A stretch of DNA of 64,000 nucleotides. Source: Haliclystus octoradiatus. Taxonomy: Eukaryota; Cnidaria; Staurozoa; Stauromedusae; Haliclystidae. The notes beneath the pieces are model-generated. The model was not told the DNA's origin and ran no database searches. It was given only the letters and a program-made list of their open reading frames with translations. The stretch lies in the NCBI GenBank assembly GCA_916610825.1, contig OU744450.1, positions 21,997,338-22,061,337 of the forward strand, in the 5' to 3' direction. Below, in pieces: positions 63,321 to 64,000 of this stretch; position 1 is the first letter of the stretch, and every line of letters begins with the position of its first letter. A program made the translations under genes and the position numbers.

Positions 63321-63412
63321 TTAGGTATTATCTAATAGCAGTAAAACAGTGCTCAATGTCAGTTGACAGAGCTGTAAATATAATAAAGAAGTCAAAGACT
63401 ACACATTTTGAT

Positions 63413-63455
63413 ACTGTTACTTAAAGTTTCACGCTTTATGCGATCCTCAGACAGT
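63413..63455 (-). ncRNA. Hammerhead ribozyme, type I, copy 3, left arm
   Basis: Exact mirror of the right-arm ribozyme: ACTGT, CTGAGGA, TCGC-ATAAA-GCGT, GAAA, CTTTAAG, GTA, ACAGT on the minus strand. The outer stem II pair is U-U. The predicted cut is between 63418 and 63417. Confidence 0.76.
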
Positions 63456-63502
63456 TAAAACTGTCTAAACTGTTAAACTGTTAAACTGTTAAAACTGTTT
63501 TA

Positions 63503-63545
63503 ACTGTCTGAGGATCGCATAAAGCGTGAAACTTTAAGTAACAGT
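63503..63545 (+). ncRNA. Hammerhead ribozyme, type I, copy 3, right arm
   Basis: ACTGT at 63503-63507 pairs with ACAGT at 63541-63545 (stem I, five pairs), and TTTT/AAAA can extend it beyond an internal loop. CTGAGGA is at 63508-63514, stem II TCGC-ATAAA-GCGT, GAAA at 63528-63531, a two-pair stem III, and GTA at 63538-63540. All invariant core bases are met. The U-U at the base of stem II may lower activity. Confidence 0.77.
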
Positions 63546-63576
63546 ATCAAAATGTGTAGTCTTTGACTTCTTTATT

Positions 63577-64000
63577 ATATTATTATTATTATTATTATTA
63601 TTATTATTATTATTATTATTATTATTATTATTATTATTATTATTATTATTATTATTATTATTATTATTATTATTATTATTATTATTATTATTATTATTAT
63701 TATTATTATTATTATTATTATTATTATTATTACTGTATTATTATTATTATTATTATTATTATTATTATTATTATTATTATTATTATTATTATTATTATTA
63801 TTATTATTATTGTTATTATTATTATTATTATTATTATTATTATTATTATTATTATTATTACTGTATTATTATTATTATTATTATTATTATTATTATTATT
63901 ATTATTATTATTATTATTATTATTATTATTATTATTATTATTATTATTATTATTATTATTATTATTATTATTATTATTATTATTATTATTATTATTATTA
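63577..64000. repeat. (TTA)n microsatellite running off the window
   Basis: TTA/ATT repeats continue to the right edge with a few interruptions (CTG near 63732 and 63861, a TTG near 63811). The true end lies outside the window, so further hammerhead elements may follow. Confidence 0.97.

Follow-up and report, generated by a model that had tools for sequence, protein, structure and literature searches.

Palindromic inserts with opposed hammerhead motifs in Haliclystus octoradiatus as probable minimal insertions of a Penelope-like retroelement

Results

Inserts in the window

The final kilobase of the window, the 64-kb stretch of Haliclystus octoradiatus DNA that was analysed, contains two palindromes inside a long (TTA)n tract. 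The last of these is an inverted repeat (63377-63478 / 63480-63581) with arms of 102 nt that are 95% complementary and separated by 1 nt. Its features and those of the other copies in the window are:

63317..63579, no strand: whole insert, two head-to-head leader copies of a putative Penelope-like element (PLE) within a (TTA)n tract
63317..63378, minus strand: tail of about 62 nt, in the left (long) arm only, with the long end TAGTATTAG at 63317-63325
63418..63450, minus strand: left-arm hammerhead core, stem I reaching out to 63413-63455, predicted cut 63418/63417
63451..63507, no strand: spacer of 57 nt between the cores, made up of both upstream ends and repeated AACTGTT filler
63508..63540, plus strand: right-arm hammerhead core, stem I reaching out to 63503-63545, predicted cut 63540/63541
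63570..63579, plus strand: short end CTTTATTATA of the right arm, followed by (TTA)n
62771..63016 (ends approximate), no strand: second insert, same plan as 63317-63579, different sequence
62881-62913 (minus strand) and 62944-62976 (plus strand): cores of the second insert, opposed as in 63317-63579
1118..1334 (ends approximate), no strand: third insert, damaged, with a core at 1213-1247 (minus strand)
20260..20430, minus strand: decayed single arm resembling an arm of locus L058, with a damaged core at 20411 (minus strand) whose final bases are altered

Within each arm of the insert at 63317-63579 the order is stem I, CUGAGGA, a short stem II, GAAAC, a tiny stem III and GUA. Stem I has 5 bp (ACUGU/ACAGU); in stem II, of 3 bp, the base of the helix carries a U.U mismatch. 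An earlier note on this DNA had described opposed hammerheads here, on the minus strand in the left arm and on the plus strand in the right, and both the cores (63450-63418 and 63508-63540) and the two predicted cut positions were recovered. The palindrome to which it had assigned positions 63349-63582 is real; the insert itself is larger, since the left arm includes the tail sequence absent from the right arm. In the third insert the right arm starts inside the putative ribozyme, near 1283, and the plus-strand partner lacks CTGANGA, so that a complete core is present on the minus strand only.

The predicted fold of the whole unit is one long hairpin (-141.9 kcal/mol, z -29.7). Rfam matches of the palindromes to miRNA precursors were rejected as being below the gathering scores and arising from the hairpin shape. 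The fillers between the arms, at 63451-63507 and in other spacers, often repeat nearby sequence such as the AACTGTT units, as if the polymerase had stuttered while the arms were joined. A tRNA gene at 13584-13654 (Rfam tRNA, 65.6 bits) was the only gathering-level Rfam match in the window.

Hammerhead cores

The genome searched comprises 262 Mb in 33 contigs. The pattern CTGANGATYGCATAAANCGNGAAACTNNNAGTAAC, which spans the family of the window and close subfamilies, had 300 exact matches genome-wide and its reversed control had 0. The loose motif CTGANGAN{8,20}GAAACNNNNNGTA matched at 4032 places genome-wide, whereas its reversal matched at 24. The roughly 4000 minimal hammerhead motifs of the genome come from many families.

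Alignment of 55 distinct cores, from the window and from fetched loci, revealed covariation in all three helices. The covarying pairs were I1, I3 and I4 in stem I, II4 in stem II and III4 in stem III, and the observed pairing was matched in 0-4 of 2000 shuffles, counts which are not probabilities because the cores are related sequences. Several pairs hardly vary, and the fifth pair of stem I, formed in just 10 of the 55 cores, is not supported. The first pair of stem II is U.U in 29 of the 55 cores, including the copy in the window; in the axolotl ribozyme HHR_Amex2 cleavage is reported to persist with U.U at this position, the monomer reaching 22% within one hour (PMC7229834). Both the match to the type I core (CUGANGA...GAAA...UH with three helices) and the covariation argue for minimal hammerheads of type I such as PLEs carry, as the earlier note had proposed.

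Pair III4 is formed in 52 of the 55 cores and covaries across a single-base loop. Since a pair spanning one base is impossible in a cis hairpin, the covariation suggests that helix III may form between two RNA copies. A dimeric helix III would fit the work of Lunse 2017, which judging by its title reportedly deals with cleavage as dimers. Dimeric action of minimal hammerheads is also reported in passages of a review (PMC7761336).

The curated covariance models did not recognise the cores: Rfam gave no hammerhead at gathering level over the whole window and none at E<=10 in three local scans, an absence that does not exclude the fold. The earlier note had named the lack of any covariance-model match on the cores as refuting its reading; taken literally, this is the outcome that Rfam gave, but in our view it is outweighed by the covariation seen across aligned families. 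The MFE folds of four single cores (48-57 nt; z -1.67, -0.54, -0.08 and -0.45) were at best weakly stable and did not display the hammerhead shape as such; single-core MFE folding is uninformative for so small a motif.

The parent element

The arms are the leader (pLTR) of an element present in many copies in the genome, and the palindrome is therefore not the self-standing foldback element that it had been taken for. In longer inserts the same arms flank coding sequence, with a frame of 583 aa in L009 and of 627 aa in L010. Picked out by eye, these frames contain FDIESFYP and YRDDGLAV, which we take to be reverse transcriptase (RT) motifs, and YIGLTEGTFKTRHTQH (YIGLTEG..R...H), presumably from the GIY-YIG nuclease of a PLE. 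Searches of the ORF and its relatives in Pfam, NCBIfam and PDB gave no match supporting RT or GIY-YIG. The order of the element is hammerhead, short-end site CTTTATTATA, tail of about 60 nt, long-end site CTAATACTA and ORF.

Partial tandem copies, as known for the pLTRs of PLEs, are present in L011 and L012, where two leader copies in direct orientation, at distances of 2481 and 2479 nt, enclose the coding region (interrupted in L012). Either tandem transcripts or an RNA circle copied round by RT could have produced this arrangement. In L009, L010, L013 and L014 the two leader copies face each other. As read from these loci, the architecture fits a Penelope-like element. An autonomous foldback or MITE-type DNA element moving as a palindrome would likewise be small, palindromic and present in many copies, but it is hardly credible here, with spacers and arm starts that vary among 46 inserts, unequal outer ends, and arms continuous with a retroelement leader.

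A retrozyme was rejected as a candidate. Animal non-LTR retrozymes similarly have type I hammerheads and spread through RNA, but passages of PMC7229834 describe them as short, non-coding repeats in direct tandem array that give rise to circRNAs. The present inserts, by contrast, form inverted pairs and belong to a coding element, and the direct copies, spaced about 2.48 kb and enclosing a coding region, differ from non-coding tandem units of about 150-450 nt. A distant blastn search of the palindrome against phages gave no match, and relatives of the ORF sought in viral and prokaryote contigs yielded none that was confirmed.

Outer ends, tails and target duplications

In the head-to-head inserts one arm stops at the short-end site and the other at the long-end site. 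The families named here are F1 (ACAGTATC), F2 (ACAGTAAA) and F3 (GCAAATAT). All 38 F1 and F2 pairs recognised by script (27 in F1 and 11 in F2) have one tailed and one tailless arm, corresponding to the inverted pLTRs with a tail on one that are found in PLEs. This count omits arms lacking a recognised partner (L003/L027, L004/L028, L006, L025, L026, L036, L040, L047, L048 and extra arms of L016 and L032), as well as L012 with its direct copies, L015 with arms 8.3 kb apart, L073, which the script left unpaired and which was read by eye, and L001, L002 and L008, which overlap other loci.

A word search over all families, in a set of pairs overlapping with the previous one, identified 42 of 46 pairs as long/short and four as short/short. 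By eye, one arm of each of these four retains the beginning of a tail, the remnant being cut short in L050, affected by an inner deletion in L060, diverged in L067 and interrupted by F1 sequence in L047. The tail rule was also followed by 13 of 14 further very short inserts, L077 giving no clear fit and seven F4 inserts being left out of the check. A fuzzy tail test had indicated two long arms in L019, L021, L023 and L072, a result that was discarded as by eye one arm of each is tailless. Also rejected was a rule that the tailed arm always extends further upstream, which suits L013 and L014 as well as the overlaps in L009, L010 and L011 but is contradicted by the opposite order in L038. Independent choice of the two ends should often have given two tailed or two tailless arms; no clear pair of either kind was seen among the head-to-head pairs examined.

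Identical words of 9-14 nt are present at both flanks in seven of the nine measured F3 inserts (one of them a TA run) and absent in L077 and L085, L083 lying outside the measured set. In the cross-locus control the mean was 5.8 and the maximum 11, with 9 of 72 comparisons at >=8. The duplications imply that in most of those inserts both arms entered as one event. TA or TTA runs adjoin most of the ends read; an AT-rich target and short target site duplications (TSDs), both expected of a PLE, are thus found together.

Arm starts and the predicted cut

The F1 collection was based on anchor words 0-154 nt apart, and 46 inserts were kept after matches without element sequence had been removed by eye; as exact anchor words miss mutated copies, the counts are lower bounds. 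Positions were counted upstream from the predicted cut, stem I ending at 38. Among the 92 F1 arms, 34 start at 44/45, 10 at 41, 6 at 39 and 5 at 51, and altogether 70 start at 39-63, upstream of stem I. A further 19 arms start from -3 to 33 (five at 0, one at -3 and the rest at 7-33), and none at positions 1-6. The entire ribozyme with stem I is included in both arms of 29 of the 46 inserts, while 14 have at least one arm starting inside the ribozyme (7-35). The remaining three (L071, L072 and L073) start at the predicted cut, each consisting of one tailed and one tailless arm. An inner start at C8:2359720 is a small indel and not a true end.

Repeating the short-gap search in three further families recovered 4, 10 and 7 inserts, none of which was discarded (reversed controls 1+1, 0 and 0); in F1 three of 30 places were kept (control 6+6). 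The 24 shortest inserts so obtained from four families comprise 48 arms. Of these, 21 begin precisely at the cut, 19 lie 1-4 nt short of it and 8 extend 1-6 nt past it. An overrun of 1 nt is expected by chance if filler follows, and the short side is truncated because the anchors miss arms stopping more than 3-4 nt short, the upstream side being open.

The cut-site class could also arise without ribozyme cleavage, if RT halted at the hammerhead fold or if sequence was lost from the deletion-prone centres of palindromes. The fold lies in the path of the RT, and the 19 arms ending before the cut and the 8 past it would agree with such an origin. A halt at the fold should, however, precede the copying of the 3' strand of stem I and not follow it, the position is common to four families of different sequence, and the 29 F1 inserts with a complete ribozyme were read through in both arms. 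We therefore consider stops or deletions an unlikely source of this class.

Matching of the two arms

In 21 of the 46 F1 inserts the two arm starts are at most 1 nt apart, against 8.3 expected by random pairing (0 of 20000 shuffles). Without the cut-site inserts the figure is 19 of 43, against 8.8 expected (1 of 20000 shuffles). The six cut-site arms are confined to three F1 inserts (chance 2e-5), and no insert among the 46 combines a cut-site arm with one starting near 44. These counts come from one genome, in which homogenisation of the palindrome arms after insertion is possible. Some inserts have identical centres; of these, L018 and L024 have different flanks and are thus not copies of one locus.

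Matched starts would likewise be produced if a single cDNA folded back and was copied into the second arm, and self-priming has been proposed for junction palindromes (Arkhipova 2013, PMC3846280). Folding back predicts equal outer ends, but the observed ends differ, one always being the fixed short end, and the arms of long inserts are unequal (397 and 728 nt in L013, 364 and 196 nt in L014), so that we find this origin improbable.

Another possibility is that a single insertion draws on two RNAs joined as a dimer by helix III, of which one is copied from a start site before the tail (S) and the other from a start site after it (L), and that the two RNAs are cleaved or left uncleaved together. 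This would account for the paired cut-site arms, and it agrees with the covarying last pair of stem III, unpairable in cis, with the reported activity of minimal hammerheads as dimers, and with the modelling of a PLE protein as a dimer by Frangieh 2024 (PMC11167929). Alone, however, it gives no account of the shared starts in uncleaved pairs or of the fact that S and L are never used twice, and we regard it as a tentative, somewhat unlikely alternative.

Discussion

Proposed insertion mechanism

We interpret the palindrome as a minimal insertion of a Penelope-like retroelement, the leader having been copied from both target strands, with a probability of about 0.75. The element RNA would carry, from near its 5' end, the minimal hammerhead, start site S, the tail of about 60 nt, start site L and the ORF. 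An AT-rich target would be cut on both strands, leaving two 3' ends that overlap by about 9-14 nt, one of them priming reverse transcription at S and the other at L. Both cDNAs would extend to the RNA 5' end and be joined there, often with filler, and the product would be two head-to-head leader copies, one tailed and one tailless. From an RNA with an intact 5' end both arms would receive the ribozyme, as in the window; from an RNA cut by the ribozyme beforehand both arms would begin at the cut; and read-through or tandem RNA would give the longer inserts. S and L lie about 85 and about 147 nt from the main arm start, and two cDNAs reaching that end and joined there would form the window palindrome. 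Being two joined run-off cDNAs, the foldbacks would be complete run-off products of the leader and not chance truncations.

The two types of ends, the tail rule, the clustered arm starts and the target duplications of F3 can be read directly from the inserts. The main arm-start peak probably corresponds to the RNA 5' end. One RNA probably serves both strands, and with its one S, one L and one 5' end this would explain both the tail rule and the matched starts. The cut-site class would follow if some RNAs were cleaved first, and was probably made by ribozyme cleavage at the predicted cut. We give an even chance to the more specific proposal that a single leader RNA is used twice in each insertion, one time per target strand and from two fixed start sites, which would leave a tail on one arm only, and that element RNA is cut by the PLE hammerhead in the germ line and then serves as a minor but usable template.

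The 43 of 46 F1 inserts that do not start at the cut agree with uncleaved RNA as the main substrate, and the other three suggest a minor class of cleaved template RNA. Against the mechanism are the 14 F1 inserts with an arm start inside the ribozyme, the 19 of 48 arms of the short set that end 1-4 nt before the cut and the 8 that extend 1-6 nt beyond it, the results of Frangieh 2024 (below), the lack of a clear fit of L077 to the tail rule, and the recognition of the RT and GIY-YIG domains by eye.

If the mechanism is accepted, the opposed ribozymes in one hairpin are a by-product. It had been suggested that the hairpin could switch the ribozymes off. The long hairpin makes this physically possible, but a switching function finds no support, as arm starts and spacers vary between copies; silencing is plausible but looks like a by-product. 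As there is one ribozyme per strand, a transcript through both arms would form no helix-III dimer in cis.

Comparison with known elements

The inverted layout, which the earlier note had thought undescribed, is published: Arkhipova 2013 (PMC3846280) reports, in the passages concerned, inverted pLTRs with an optional 31-bp tail on one, TSDs of 8-10 bp and junction palindromes. These endonuclease-bearing Penelope elements of Adineta vaga share with the Haliclystus inserts both direct and inverted pLTRs, the head-to-head orientation, the single tail, TSDs and palindromes. The Adineta tail is optional and 31 bp long, whereas that of Haliclystus is about 60 nt and present on one arm of every clear pair; the same passages are silent on hammerheads, and the Haliclystus inserts are often leader-only.

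According to sections of Frangieh 2024 (PMC11167929), a PLE protein acts in vitro on AT-rich targets, both strands of which it cuts and extends, and two adjacent RNA start sites near the ORF start bound the tail. The strands showed no difference in start site, uncleaved RNA was the main substrate and cleavage was unneeded in vitro. The element in question, the Poseidon PLE of Anolis (PAc), resembles the present one in its hammerhead near the ORF start, in the two tail-bounding RT sites, in the cutting and extension of both target strands and in its AT-rich targets. In vitro, PAc gave no reads at the hammerhead cut, whereas four families in Haliclystus have insertion junctions concentrated at the predicted cut.

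The minimal hammerheads of PLEs and Terminons, of which passages of PMC7229834, PMC7761336 and PMC6155905 report thousands per animal genome, are likewise of type I with a very short helix III and are located in PLE pseudo-LTRs. Their role is there stated to be unknown (PMC7761336), whereas the positions of the Haliclystus junctions suggest that template RNA is cleaved. Tailed inverted pLTRs are already on record, as is the presence of hammerheads in PLEs. What looks new is the regularity, i.e. the tail rule, the arm starts at or just upstream of the ribozyme and the matched starts; in the parts of the PLE literature that were looked over, no report of junctions at the hammerhead cut or of a strict one-tail rule was noticed.

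Significance

At stake are the mode of PLE insertion, the purpose of the tail and of the inverted pLTRs, and the role of the hammerhead, the in vivo function of PLE ribozymes being termed a mystery in the portion of a review dealing with it (PMC7761336). The leader-only inserts are small, numerous and readable, and each of them reports the start site used on each strand and the end of the template. Questions on PLE insertion and its ribozyme become counts, and any further genome containing inserts of this kind can be counted in the same way. If one RNA is indeed copied twice and the hammerhead cuts in the germ line, the junctions of a single genome would record both RNA 5' ends and the action of the ribozyme.
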